Shown here one piece after another: positions 7,598-58,754 of a stretch of DNA of 64,000 nt. The position numbers and the translations under genes are program-made. Source of the DNA: Geovibrio ferrireducens. Lineage in GTDB: Bacteria; Chrysiogenota; Deferribacteres; Deferribacterales; Geovibrionaceae. Location: contig NZ_JAJAPB010000002.1 in the NCBI RefSeq assembly GCF_026226615.1, forward strand, positions 62,001-126,000, read 5' to 3'. The stretch's first letter is position 1. The number at the start of each line of letters is the position of its first letter. The notes beneath the pieces are model-generated. The model saw only the letters and a program-made list of their open reading frames with translations. It did no database searches and was not told the origin of the DNA.

Positions 7598-7665
7598 CCT
7601 TTTATCTGAAACCGCTGAAAACGAAACAAGGAAAACCTAAATAAATTACAGGTCGTATATCGGAC

Positions 7666-7693
7666 TTGACTTGTACTAATTGACTATTATAGT
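7666..7693 (+). promoter_or_regulatory. Sigma-70-type promoter for rubredoxin
   Basis: TTGACT at 7666-7671 and TATAGT at 7688-7693 are separated by 16 bases. They lie about 36 bases before the rubredoxin ATG, which has a strong AAGGAGG at 7716-7722. A second TTGACT occurs at 7680 but has no well-spaced partner. Confidence 0.6.
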
Positions 7694-7728
7694 TTAGGTA
7701 TCATTTCTAATCCACAAGGAGGACTGCT

Positions 7729-7890
7729 ATGAAATATGTATGTACAGTGTGCGGATGGATTTATGACCCTGAAGTGGGCGATCCCGACGGCGGCATCGAA
7801 CCCGGAACAGAATTTGAAGACATCCCCGAAGACTGGGTCTGCCCCGAATGCGGAGTAGGCAAAGACAGCTTCGAGGTTTACGAAGACTAA
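7729..7890 (+). CDS. Rubredoxin
   Basis: This small gene encodes a 53-residue one-iron electron carrier. Four cysteines bind the iron in two CxxCG knuckles (Cys5/Cys8 and Cys38/Cys41), and the typical [12 protein letters not shown] and [14 protein letters not shown] stretches are present. It has a perfect Shine-Dalgarno sequence (AAGGAGG), its own promoter and its own terminator. The flavodiiron protein gene starts 132 bases downstream. Rubredoxin is the usual electron donor to such proteins, so the two probably form an O2/NO reduction chain in the cytoplasm. Confidence 0.97.
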
Positions 7891-7905
7891 TAAACGAAAT
7901 CACCG

Positions 7906-7932
7906 GCCGTCCGGCTTGTCCGGGCGGCTTTT
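7906..7932 (+). terminator. Intrinsic terminator after rubredoxin
   Basis: A 9-bp GC-rich stem (7906-7914 with 7920-7928, one G-T wobble) with a 5-base loop is followed by TTTT. It separates rubredoxin from the flavodiiron gene, so rubredoxin is mostly monocistronic. Confidence 0.7.
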
Positions 7933-7990
7933 CGTTTGCACCTCCTCTCAAAATCATTGCTTTTTCAATACCCATGAACTATTCTTTAAA

Positions 7991-8005
7991 AGATAAAATT
8001 TATCT
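7991..8005. promoter_or_regulatory. Palindrome before the flavodiiron gene
   Basis: AGATAAAATTTATCT is a perfect 7-bp inverted repeat around one central base. It sits 18 bases before the ATG at 8023, just upstream of the GGGAGG ribosome-binding site. Position and symmetry fit an operator for a dimeric regulator. The regulator is unknown, and the Rrf2 protein at 33.5 kb is only one candidate. Confidence 0.4.
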
Positions 8006-8022
8006 CTTATACGGGAGGCCAT

Positions 8023-25472: not shown

Positions 25473-25505
25473 AGCCCCTTTGTCATCTGACAAAGGGGCT
25501 TTCGT
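25473..25505 (+). terminator. Intrinsic terminator of amt (possibly bidirectional)
   Basis: A perfect 13-bp stem (25473-25485 with 25488-25500) with a 2-base loop is followed by TTCGTATTT. It may serve both amt and, in reverse, mqnA. Confidence 0.85.
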
Positions 25506-25522
25506 ATTTAATAACACCAAAC

Positions 25523-25608
25523 TGTACATCCTGTCAGTTTGATGTACACGCTCGCGCCGAACCAGGTTCGGCTTCGCTCCGCACGGCGCAGCCCAGTCCT
25601 TGGGGCTG
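25523..25608 (+). repeat. Triple-hairpin dispersed element, copy B
   Basis: Stem I pairs TGTACATC (25523-25530) with GATGTACA (25541-25548). Stem II pairs CCGAAC (25557-25562) with GTTCGG (25566-25571). Stem III pairs CAGCCC (25589-25594) with GGGCTG (25603-25608). The linkers CGCTCGCG and CTTCGCTCCGCACGGCG are almost identical to copies A and C, while stem II differs in sequence. An alternative pairing AAACTG/CAGTTT overlaps stem I. It lies between the convergent amt and mqnA genes. Confidence 0.8.
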
Positions 25609-25624
25609 TTAGGGGTTAATGCTT

Positions 25625-30276: not shown

Positions 30277-30404
30277 ACTTTATTATTTAAAACGTACATC
30301 CTGTGGTTTTTACAGCAAGCTCTGCGCATTCGCACCCTTGGGGCTGTTTGCGTCATTGCGAACCCTGAAAGGGTGAAGCAATCTCTCATTCGATAGCATC
30401 AAAC

Positions 30405-30490
30405 TGCACATCCTGTCAGTTTGATGTACACGCTCGCGCCGCTTAAAAAGCGGCTTCGCTTCGCACGGCGCAGCCCCTTCCATGGGGCTG
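30405..30490 (+). repeat. Triple-hairpin dispersed element, copy C
   Basis: Stem I pairs TGCACATC (30405-30412) with GATGTACA (30423-30430), one mismatch. Stem II pairs CCGCTT (30439-30444) with AAGCGG (30448-30453). Stem III pairs CAGCCCC (30471-30477) with GGGGCTG (30484-30490). Linkers are the same as in copy B. Stem II differs from copy B at three positions on each arm with pairing preserved, so the structure, not the sequence, is being kept. Confidence 0.8.
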
Positions 30491-30713
30491 TATATCTCTG
30501 TATATTCAGAGACTGCCTCATAGTTTCAGCTCCTCGCAGTGACACAGCAGTGCGCCATTCCGGGGCATCAGCCGAAGAATCTATGACTTAACAGGAAAAA
30601 ACCTGCACGTCCCTCAGTTTTCAGGCAGGTGCATACCGCCCCCTGCGCCATTGGGTTCTGTACCATTTATATCGGGCGTTTGTCAATAATTTAACCGCTC
30701 TCAAACCCACCCA

Positions 30714-33503: not shown

Positions 33504-33938
33504 ATGAAAGTTACCAGAGCCAGTGATTACGCGATCCGCTCACTCATCCACATAGCAAAAAAACAGGAAGGAACGGTTTTTATGCGCTCTGAACTGTCCA
33601 AGGCCTGCGATATACCGGACAGCTTTCTGGGCAAAATTCTCCAGAACCTCGCCAAGGCAGACATACTAAGCTCCGAGCGGGGCAAAAAAGGCGGATTCAG
33701 GCTCAACAGACCCACCCAGGACATCACAGTCTATGACATAATCAAAGCAATCGAAGGCGAACTCAGTTTAAATGAATGTATTTTTGATGACAGTTTTTGC
33801 AGCATAGTTAACACCTGCTCAGCACATAAAATGTGGGGCAGCATACAGGACTCCCTTCTTCAAAAGCTCAAATCCTATACCCTTAAACAACTTGCGGATG
33901 ATGAGATGAGAGGGCAGAAAGAACACGTTCAGCCGTAA
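33504..33938 (+). CDS. Rrf2-family transcriptional regulator, probable Fe-S sensor
   Basis: The 144-residue winged-helix protein begins with the family signature VTRASDYAIRSLIHIA, followed by IPDSFLGKILQNLAKADIL (recognition helix) and ERGKKGGFRL (wing). Three cysteines at 92, 99 and 105 (C-x6-C-x5-C) match the cluster-binding loop of IscR/NsrR-type members, so it probably senses iron-sulfur status, O2 or NO. No isc/suf genes are adjacent, so its targets are unknown. GAAGGAG precedes the ATG. The flavodiiron and rubredoxin genes would be sensible targets. Confidence 0.92.
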   Translation: MKVTRASDYAIRSLIHIAKKQEGTVFMRSELSKACDIPDSFLGKILQNLAKADILSSERGKKGGFRLNRPTQDITVYDIIKAIEGELSLNECIFDDSFCSIVNTCSAHKMWGSIQDSLLQKLKSYTLKQLADDEMRGQKEHVQP

Positions 33939-34005
33939 ACGGCATTAGACGGGGCTTCCAGCATAAGTAGCTTATAATAATGAATAAATTTTATTATTTT
34001 TTTAT

Positions 34006-34034
34006 TTGACGAACCCCCATTCATGCTTTAACAT
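34006..34034 (+). promoter_or_regulatory. Promoter of the nrdJ leader
   Basis: TTGACG (34006-34011) and TAACAT (34029-34034) are 17 bases apart. Transcription would begin near 34042, leaving a leader of about 400 bases before the ribonucleotide reductase ATG. Confidence 0.55.
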
Positions 34035-34041
34035 ATATCTC

Positions 34042-34275
34042 ATGGGCGGTGCGTATCTCCTTTTCATGCCCCCGGTTAGCACAGACTGCTGAAATATCCT
34101 TTACCTTTAGACCTGTTTATTTTTATCGGTGCTCAAGGTTGCGTTGCGGCTGTTTTGTTAACCCTATATCAACTTTTCTATGGTAAAGGTGTTGTTGTGG
34201 CTTATCACCATGGGGTCGGAAGCATTTCTTTTTTAAATTCCGGTAAGCAGTCTGCTTTTTCCCTGTTCGGGGTGA
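34042..34275 (+). ncRNA. Candidate structured leader RNA upstream of nrdJ
   Basis: This gene-free DNA follows a promoter and holds nested long-range complementarity. AGC-AGACTGCT (34078-34090, 2-base bulge) pairs with AGCAGTCTGCT (34246-34256). CCTTTACC (34098-34105) pairs perfectly with GGTAAAGG (34182-34189). Smaller hairpins are enclosed (GGTT/AACC 34137-34163; CGGAA/TTCCG near 34217-34241), and a CCC/GGG hairpin lies near 34261-34271. The nesting gives a multibranched fold. I compared it by eye with cobalamin, TPP, FMN, SAM, glycine, Moco, fluoride and c-di-GMP riboswitches, RNase P, SRP, tmRNA and 6S, and none fits. It could be a regulatory leader or a separate small RNA. Confidence 0.45.
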
Positions 34276-34348
34276 TTATTCCTTCAATAAATTAAAAAAA
34301 TACTTGGGAAAAATACTTTCCCCTATATTTTAATTAAAATGCGGATCT

Positions 34349-34441
34349 GCGGGTCTGCGTTATTTGTTTGTACAAGACGCTTTTGCGTCATTATTTGAAA
34401 AAAACGCTAACCCGCTGCCTCTCCAGCTGCGGGTGCGGAGG
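34349..34441 (+). promoter_or_regulatory. Mutually exclusive helices before the nrdJ ribosome-binding site
   Basis: The segment AACGC-TA-ACCCGC (34403-34415) can pair with upstream GCGGGT-CT-GCGTT (34349-34361), which encloses a GACGC/GCGTC hairpin. Its ACCCGC half can instead pair with downstream GCGGGT (34429-34434). The downstream loop carries CCTC (34418-34421), complementary to GAGG of the ribosome-binding site (34438-34441). Such an either/or design is typical of translational attenuators. This is a pairing inspection, not an energy calculation. Confidence 0.45.
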
Positions 34442-34445
34442 TTGT

Positions 34446-36749
34446 ATGCTTAACACCGAGGAGATTGAAAAGGTTCTCTCCCGTGAACCGAAACTTTCGG
34501 CAAATGCTGTTACCGTTCTTAAGAAGAGGTATTTAAAGAGGGATAATAACGGTAATGCCACGGAAACGCCGAAAAAAATGTTCCAGCGTGTGGCGCTGAA
34601 CATTGCGGAAGCCGAAAGAAAATTTGACGAGAAGGCGGATGTTCTCGCCAAAGCGGCTCAGTTTTACGATCAGATGATTGATCTCAAATTCCTTCCCAAT
34701 TCTCCCACTCTTATGAACGCAGGAAGAGAGCTTCAGCAGCTTTCCGCATGCTTTGTTCTTCCTGTGGATGACACGCTCGAAGGCATTTTCGATGCGGTTA
34801 AGAACACCGCTCTTATTCATAAATCCGGCGGAGGAACAGGTTTTTCCTTCAGCCGCCTCAGACCGAAAGACGATGTGGTAAAAACCACCAAAGGCGTATC
34901 CAGCGGCCCAGTATCGTTCATGAGCGTTTTTGACGCAGCCACGGAAACCATCAAACAGGGCGGAACAAGACGCGGCGCGAACATGGGGATCCTCCGTGTG
35001 GATCACCCTGATATTATGGACTTTATCTACGCCAAGCAGGACAAAACAAAGCTCACTAACTTCAACATCTCTGTCGGCGCAACAGAAGCCTTTATGAACG
35101 CCCTTGAGTCAAGCGGCAATTTTGACCTTATAAACCCCAAAACCAAAAAGAAAGCAGGCTCCCTCAACGCGAAAGAAGTCTTCGATCAGATGGTTCAGCT
35201 TGCGTGGGAAGGCGGAGATCCGGGAATCATATTCCTTGACAGAATAAACGCCGAAAACCCCACCCCGAAAGAGGGTGAAATAGAGAGCACAAACCCCTGC
35301 GGCGAGCAGCCTCTTCTCCCTTATGAATCATGCAATCTCGGTTCAATAAACCTTGGCAGGTTTGTGGAAGACGGCAAGGCGGACTGGAAAGCCCTTGAAG
35401 AAACAGTGAAAACTGCCGTCAGATTCCTTGACAACGTAATCGAAATGAACAAGTACCCCATAGTTCAGATCGAAAACCAGACAAAAAGAAACCGCAAAAT
35501 CGGTCTCGGCATCATGGGCTGGGCGGATATGCTTGCCATGCTTGAAATCCCCTACAACAGTGACGAGGCAATAGACTTTGCTGAAAAAATAATGAAATTC
35601 ATCCGTGACAAGGCAAGGGAAGCCTCCGCAGAACTCGCTAAAGAAAGAGGAAACTTCCCCACTTTCAACGACAGCGTGTACCCTGCCATGGGCTTTAAAA
35701 ACATGCGCAACGCCACAGTCACCACCATTGCCCCCACAGGCACAATATCGATCATCGCCGGATGTTCCAGCGGAATCGAGCCCTATTTTGCCATAGCCTT
35801 CTACAGGTTTGTTATGGATAACAACAAACTGCCGGAAGTATGCCCCGTTTTCAAGGATATAGCCAAGAAAGACGGCTTTTACTCTGATGACCTCATGGAG
35901 AAAGTGGCCGATACCGGGCATGTGCATGACCTTGAGCAGGTTCCGTCAAAATGGCGCAAAGTGTTTGTAACATCGCATGAAATAACACCCCTTTGGCATA
36001 TCAAAATGCAGGCGGCATTCCAGAGATATACTGACAATGCAGTGAGCAAAACAGTTAACTTCTCCAACGAAGCCACAGTGGATGATGTACGGAACGCTTA
36101 TCTCCTCTCATACAAACTCGGCTGCAAAGGAACTACAATCTACCGTGACGGAAGCCGCACGGGGCAGGTTCTTAACGTTGGCACAAAAGAGAAGAAGGAA
36201 GAAGCAGTTGCTGCTCAGCAGCTTCCCAATAAACCCAGACCCAGACCCTCTGTGCTGGTGGGACGCACTATAGAGATGATGACCGGCTGCGGCAAACTTT
36301 ATGTAACTATAAATCAGGATGAAAACGGCGAACCATTCGAAGTTTTCACCAGCATGGGCAAAGCCGGCGGATGCGCACAGAGCCAGTGCGAGGCAATAGG
36401 AAGGCTTATCTCCCTCGACCTCAGAAGCGGCGGCGATATTGACCTGATCATCAAGCAGCTTAAAGGCATATCATGCCACATGAAATACGGTTTCGGCCAG
36501 AACACTGTGCTGAGTTGTTCCGACGCTGTGGGCAAAGCCCTTGAGCTTGCTCTCAAAGCCTCGGCACTTGAGATAACTGTTACGGGCAAGCAGGAAAAAC
36601 TCAGCGTTGACAAGCTCCTTGAAACAGTGAGTGTTCATGAGGAAGAGCATAAGGTGAAAAACGGCGCCTGCCCCGAATGCGGCAGCCCCATAGAACACGT
36701 AGAAGGCTGCGATATTTGCTACTCCTGCGGCTATTCGCACTGCAGCTAA
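34446..36749 (+). CDS. nrdJ: Adenosylcobalamin-dependent (class II) ribonucleotide reductase
   Basis: The 767-residue enzyme reduces ribonucleotides to deoxyribonucleotides with B12, independent of oxygen. It shows FLPNSPTLMNAG, LSACFVLPVDD, GGGTGFSFSRLRP, NPCGEQPLLPYESCNLGSIN with the catalytic Cys/Glu, and APTGTISIIAGCSSGIEP. A TSCPD domain (about 620-700) and a four-cysteine zinc-ribbon tail (CPECG...CYSCGYSHC) complete it. I chose the ATG at 34446, after GGAGG. The frame stays open upstream to 34368, but that stretch is the leader hairpin region, and its cysteine-rich translation is not family-like. The gene stands alone between a leader and a terminator. Confidence 0.95.
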   Translation: MLNTEEIEKVLSREPKLSANAVTVLKKRYLKRDNNGNATETPKKMFQRVALNIAEAERKFDEKADVLAKAAQFYDQMIDLKFLPNSPTLMNAGRELQQLSACFVLPVDDTLEGIFDAVKNTALIHKSGGGTGFSFSRLRPKDDVVKTTKGVSSGPVSFMSVFDAATETIKQGGTRRGANMGILRVDHPDIMDFIYAKQDKTKLTNFNISVGATEAFMNALESSGNFDLINPKTKKKAGSLNAKEVFDQMVQLAWEGGDPGIIFLDRINAENPTPKEGEIESTNPCGEQPLLPYESCNLGSINLGRFVEDGKADWKALEETVKTAVRFLDNVIEMNKYPIVQIENQTKRNRKIGLGIMGWADMLAMLEIPYNSDEAIDFAEKIMKFIRDKAREASAELAKERGNFPTFNDSVYPAMGFKNMRNATVTTIAPTGTISIIAGCSSGIEPYFAIAFYRFVMDNNKLPEVCPVFKDIAKKDGFYSDDLMEKVADTGHVHDLEQVPSKWRKVFVTSHEITPLWHIKMQAAFQRYTDNAVSKTVNFSNEATVDDVRNAYLLSYKLGCKGTTIYRDGSRTGQVLNVGTKEKKEEAVAAQQLPNKPRPRPSVLVGRTIEMMTGCGKLYVTINQDENGEPFEVFTSMGKAGGCAQSQCEAIGRLISLDLRSGGDIDLIIKQLKGISCHMKYGFGQNTVLSCSDAVGKALELALKASALEITVTGKQEKLSVDKLLETVSVHEEEHKVKNGACPECGSPIEHVEGCDICYSCGYSHCS

Positions 36750-37234: not shown

Positions 37235-37281
37235 AAAGGCGATTCCCTAAAAATTATTTATACCGCTTAAGTTCCAGAGAG

Positions 37282-37313
37282 CGGCGGGCTTCGAAAGAGC
37301 CCGCCGTTTTTTT
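37282..37313 (+). terminator. Strong bidirectional-looking terminator
   Basis: CGGCGGGCT (37282-37290) pairs with AGCCCGCCG (37298-37306), followed by TTTTTTT. It ends the small gene at 36953 and lies 5 bases beyond the stop of the convergent secreted-protein gene. Confidence 0.9.
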
Positions 37314-37318
37314 ATAAA

Positions 37319-58247: not shown

Positions 58248-58694
58248 CTACCCTTTATTAAATTGTTCAACTATTATATTGGTTTCCGCCAGAATCTCGT
58301 CCGCAAGAGCGTCCTCGTAATAGAGTTCGTAAACTATGCGTACTATGCCGGCATTTATGATCATTTTGGTGCAGATTGAGCAGGGTTTGGTGTTGCAGTA
58401 GAGAGTGGCGCCCTTGATGGGCACACCGTGGTAAGCAGCCTGAAGTATTGCGTTCTGTTCGGCATGGAGCCCTCTACAAAGCTCATGCCTCTGTCCGGAG
58501 GGCACATTGAGTTTCTGCCGCAGACACCCGACAGCCTCGCAGTGGGTCACCCCCGCAGGGACTCCGTTATATCCGGTGGCAAGTATATGGTTATCTTTAA
58601 CAAGGAGTGCTCCGACCTGCCGTCTCAGACAAGTGGAGCGCTGTTTGGCTATATTCGTGATTTCAATGAAGTACTGATCCCAGTTAGGCCTCAA
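58248..58694 (-). CDS. dCMP deaminase (ComEB-like)
   Basis: The 148-residue zinc deaminase converts dCMP to dUMP for thymidylate synthesis. The zinc and catalytic motif is LHAEQNAIL (His, Glu) near 76-84 with PCSICTKMI (two Cys) near 107. The N-terminal [20 protein letters not shown] and the extra Cys/His residues of the dCMP deaminase subgroup are present. It lies 4 bases before rnfC and may be cotranscribed with it. Confidence 0.93.
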
Positions 58695-58754
58695 TACCCT
58701 GTTCCCGTAAGAAAAAACCCTCTGATGAAGCCTTTTCCCGACTTTTTGAGCATG

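Follow-up and report, generated by a model that had tools for sequence, protein, structure and literature searches.

The 64,000-nucleotide stretch of DNA analysed here (the window) belongs to a 2.97-Mb draft genome and carries nrdJ, which encodes a class II adenosylcobalamin-dependent ribonucleotide reductase. Upstream of nrdJ, on the same strand, lie a gene for an Rrf2-family transcriptional regulator, a sigma-70-like promoter and a 5' leader of about 400 nt (Table 1). nrdJ is the sole PF02867 gene found in the genome and is followed by an evident terminator with a U-run. Among the records compared, the closest named relative of the genome is Deferribacterales bacterium Deferri_01, at 95% identity in the NrdJ protein. 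A second reductase set, class III NrdD with NrdG, is encoded on a different contig.

Table 1. Coordinates of the features described at the nrdJ locus, in positions of the window.
Feature	Position	Strand	Basis
Rrf2-family transcriptional regulator, candidate nrdJ regulator	33504..33938	+	TIGR00738, 116 bits; linkage
Sigma-70-like promoter, TTGACG-17-TAACAT	34006..34034	+	Sequence scan; synteny in family genomes
5' leader of nrdJ, about 404 nt, this genus only	34042..34445	+	DNA search, alignment, covariance models
5' hairpin of consensus fold, weakly supported	34077..34163	+	RNAalifold on three-species alignment
H1 hairpin, AAAATA..GGGAA(A)-loop-(U)UUCCC..UAUUUU	34297..34331	+	Stem near-invariant, loop variable
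H2 hairpin, AAUGCGGAUC/GGUCUGCGUU, terminator-like	34338..34361	+	10 pairs in 3/3 species
H3 hairpin, GACGC-UUUU-GCGUC, small	34376..34389	+	Consensus fold, sequence scan
H4 hairpin, CGC-UA-ACCC.../...GGGU-GCG	34405..34437	+	Adjoins Shine-Dalgarno; inner pairs change type between species
nrdJ, 767 aa, ATG at 34446	34446..36749	+	NF006417, 1217 bits (cut-off 961); TIGR02504, 759 bits

The nrdJ promoter and the origin of the leader

The initial annotation had placed a promoter at 34006 and, downstream of it, a leader of about 400 nt ahead of nrdJ. The promoter motif is present, with a predicted transcription start at approximately 34041-34042, and taken alone it is at chance level (one found against 1.1 expected in shuffles). 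Its support comes from synteny, as TT[GT]AC[AG]-N17-TAACAT is found in the same place ahead of nrdJ in 11 of the 12 family genomes. The start codon lies 62-65 bases from the promoter in seven family genomes and 245 bases from it in G004, a species of another genus; the three species of the genus studied here have a spacing of 440-441. Most family members bearing the syntenic promoter have a leader of only about 35 nt. The promoter therefore predates the long leader, some 370 nt having been gained in the genus.

The leader is full-length in the three congeneric species, with BLAST matches to the two congeners at 86% and 81% identity. Beyond these two, a DNA search of 60 relatives gave no full-length match, and two additional matches of 34-37 bases were dismissed. 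Covariance models R1 and R2, one per leader half, recovered the same three genomes only, out of 51 in the phylum. The leader is single copy in the genome, and the idea that it is a repeat element was therefore rejected. In G004, a leader of about 200 nt (L006:3805-4030) lies between the same promoter and nrdJ and holds a terminator-like hairpin, GGCGC-TATTTTT-GCGCC, plus a T-run. This leader was also considered as a homologue and rejected, being unrelated in sequence and found in no other relative.

Divergence in the leader between this genome and the other two species is 14-23%, compared with 40-51% between the three species at the fourfold sites of nrdJ, so that the leader is under constraint. 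Identities of 83-88% in other intergenic stretches of the window show a comparable degree of conservation, however; sequence identity alone therefore proves little, and leader conservation was rejected as stand-alone proof after this comparison.

Conserved hairpins in the 3' half

The three-species alignment was folded and compared with column shuffles that preserve conservation and gaps. Based on this comparison, the structural signal is concentrated at 34280-34441, where the alignment-fold z is -6.3 and none of 100 shuffles is as good, against -5.1 for the whole leader and -2.2 for its 5' half. Conserved structure in this segment is also indicated by the contrast between stems and loops: the stem columns of H1, H2 and H4 comprise 59 invariant and 7 variable positions, and the hairpin-loop columns 6 and 17, respectively. 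Since the stems were picked on the same alignment as these counts, the fairer comparison comes from the shuffle test.

H1 and H2 have a high predicted probability in all three species. H2 is followed by AUUUGUUUGU, an interrupted tail, in this genome (G000) and in G002, and by AUUUUUUG, a run of six U, in G001 only. This tail is poor compared with the U-runs of the genome's evident terminators, such as the one after nrdJ; terminator-like sites, H2 among them, numbered six against 0.7 expected. H4 abuts the Shine-Dalgarno sequence GGAGG (34437-34441) and takes in its first G, and the Shine-Dalgarno region is mostly paired in the predicted ensembles. The outer stem of H4 is kept between species, while two inner pairs are changed on both sides, with one G-G and one U-U mismatch. 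With three sequences the covariation is not significant, as 114 of 500 within-pair shuffles reach the observed level.

A structured, unassigned leader before a class II reductase had been proposed from the single sequence, drawn as two nested long-range helices. Conserved structure does exist, but it is located towards the 3' end (34297-34437) and not at those helices. Both helices can be found in this genome: the 8-bp one (34098-34105 with 34182-34189) is exact, and the one described as about 11 bp consists of nine contiguous pairs (34082-34090 with 34246-34254). Across the three species, however, the former retains 8, 7 and 4 pairs and the latter 9, 6 and 4 of 11, so that the pairing is not conserved in the orthologous leaders of the congeners and the two helices have to be given up. 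The block at 34078-34256 is unremarkable in the alignment fold (z -0.93). Perfect helices of this length are not unusual by chance, since in 32% of shuffled sequences the best one is 9 bp or longer; five helices of at least 8 bp in the leader, against 1.2 expected, are somewhat more than chance would give, and the single-sequence fold of the leader is mildly unusual (z -1.92). The consensus fold offers a different hairpin in this 5' region as an alternative to the two helices (Table 1), and 34060-34179 has an alignment-shuffle z of -2.6, with adjacent windows near 0.

Elsewhere in the window, the alignment-fold z of most intergenic regions falls between +1 and -4.5, and the 3' half of the leader ranks among the top three structural scores in this comparison. 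The other two, both at about -7, belong to 37235-37318, which contains an evident terminator hairpin, and to the minus strand of 58271-58754; a strong z can therefore merely mean a terminator or another hairpin. At 58271-58754, it is part of a conserved region that has the z of -7.1 on the minus strand, and the phase of the substitutions suggests that part of the region is coding. A hairpin-rich intergenic repeat of about 110 nt, with 51 matches in the genome and several copies in a congener, was also observed at 25500-25612 and 30393-30491.

Known RNA families, cobalamin and protein regulators

The Rfam search that the initial annotation had called for matched no known class. No Rfam 15 family was found in the leader at the gathering score, and when 33940-34500 was searched at E-values up to 10, the best value was 1.6, for an animal microRNA family. 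At the gathering score, the whole window yielded two tRNAs only, and the nrdJ loci of 20 relatives likewise yielded tRNAs only.

The absence of a B12-box from the leader, noted from the sequence, agrees with the cobalamin riboswitch model RF00174, which had no match in the window, nor in 33940-34500 at E-values up to 10. As a positive control, the same model found two cobalamin riboswitches elsewhere in the genome, at 84-86 bits. One of these ends about 115 bases before nrdD-nrdG (G000 contig C6:37643-39961; L139:844-3198). The other lies upstream of a cbiK-like cobaltochelatase gene on the same strand, the protein match of which, at 164 bits, is under the family's 400-bit cut-off. The initial annotation held that cobalamin riboswitch control is common among class II reductases, and for this genome that premise is the wrong way round. 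Shutting off the B12-independent NrdD when B12 is available is the expected logic behind a riboswitch at nrdD, and with the riboswitch here preceding nrdD, there is no reason to look for one at nrdJ, so that the missing B12-box calls for no special explanation. The roles of the two reductases appear to be split according to B12 supply.

In many bacteria, reductase genes are restrained by NrdR. NrdR (TIGR00244) went undetected in this genome and across the phylum, a set of 51 Deferribacterota genomes of which 39 are of high quality; the same model matches 9 of 14 control genomes. The Rrf2-family gene, on the other hand, is found upstream of nrdJ in 11 of the 12 family genomes, as it is in each of the six genomes covered in two other families, and in a further family a related gene lies about 1.2 kb upstream of nrdJ. 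Since the gene is linked to nrdJ across families, and judging from this linkage only, Rrf2 is the likelier general controller of nrdJ, presumably at transcription start. The leader of the genus would be an added layer of control atop Rrf2; because relatives in the same family do without it, it is dispensable for basic nrdJ control.

Readings of the leader

The leader is ordinary in kind and real in substance: genus-restricted, structured and outside the known RNA families. We give about an even chance to its being a genus-specific cis-acting element that controls termination and/or translation start of nrdJ. The approximately 370 nt gained between the older syntenic promoter and the ribosome-binding site would then belong to a 5' leader that the nrdJ mRNA carries in this genus only, transcribed as drawn and most likely acting in cis after transcription initiation. 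Part of the transcripts may end early at H2 and its U-rich tail, and translation start may be limited by H4, which extends into the Shine-Dalgarno sequence. A signal would shift the balance; it could be a protein, a small RNA, a metabolite or simply the rate at which transcription or translation proceeds. A ligand sensor in the nrdJ leader is at most a possibility.

The main competitor is that the leader is simply a long non-regulatory 5' UTR, its sequence gained in the ancestor of the genus. Its hairpins would do no more than lend the mRNA stability or shield the ribosome-binding site, and the real control would be exerted by Rrf2 at the promoter. The rest of the family lacks the leader and has the same promoter some 62-65 nt from the ATG, linkage of the Rrf2 gene to nrdJ extends over three families, and the conservation of the leader is similar to that of other intergenic DNA, all of which fits this account. 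Nevertheless, the local structural signal exceeds that of most intergenic DNA, and it is the loops that vary and not the stems; on balance we consider a purely passive UTR rather unlikely, though deserving of serious attention.

It is improbable that the chief product of the promoter is a separate small RNA, about 320-330 nt long and ending at H2, with nrdJ expressed by read-through or from another start. The U-rich stretch after H2 (U6 in G001) and the conservation of the 5' part of the leader could be explained in this way. However, the H2 tail is interrupted in G000 and G002, a promoter scan of the leader region found no second promoter between H2 and nrdJ, and in relatives the same promoter directly precedes nrdJ.

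A still less probable reading is a riboswitch of a new class, sensing a nucleotide, a dNTP or a cobalamin-related ligand, with an expression platform in which the 3' arm of H2 would have two alternative partners, the 5' arm of the same hairpin and the Shine-Dalgarno region. In all three species there is complementarity between this 3' arm (34354-34361) and 34432-34439, a stretch overlapping the Shine-Dalgarno sequence, and between 34139-34145 and the 5' arm of H2 (34338-34344). Helices of such strength are, however, equally common in shuffled alignments (27 observed against 26.6 expected), and both alternative pairings have a predicted probability of about zero. The leader is moreover limited to one genus and lacks a compact, conserved, aptamer-like core showing covariation. 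We accordingly regard it as very unlikely that the leader is a new riboswitch or RNA sensor restricted to this lineage, with the 3' arm of H2 serving as the switch that tunes a B12-dependent reductase in bacteria lacking NrdR. Control by a leader peptide, encoded by an upstream ORF from the GTG at 34197 (24-33 codons) or the ATG at 34042, is the least credible of all: AAGGTG precedes the GTG and the start region is invariant in the three species, but none of the six frames carries a coding signal (z at most about 1.5) and an indel in G001 breaks the reading frame and shifts its end.

Taken as a cis-acting control element, the nrdJ leader can be compared with several known systems. With the cobalamin riboswitch (RF00174) it shares the role of a cis-acting leader of a ribonucleotide reductase gene; unlike the genome's own copies, which precede nrdD-nrdG and the cbiK-like gene, it does not match that family. 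Transcription attenuators and leaders that sequester the Shine-Dalgarno sequence resemble it in having a terminator-like hairpin and a hairpin abutting the ribosome-binding site, whereas the nrdJ leader has no leader peptide, supported antiterminator, known ligand or known protein binder. An "nrdJ motif" figures among the orphan structured 5' leaders described by comparative genomics. These are likewise structured RNAs, in this instance upstream of nrdJ, but the leader described here is confined to one genus and has no match in Rfam release 15; a literature search for an RNA motif of nrdJ gave nothing useful.

With nrdD behind a B12 riboswitch, and nrdJ beside an Rrf2 gene and, in one genus, behind a new structured leader, it can be tested directly how the two reductases share the work. 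Another possible leader in the window is the 425-nt intergenic region at 7598-8022, which lies before a flavorubredoxin-like gene, is 87% and 81% conserved and has a z of about -3.5.
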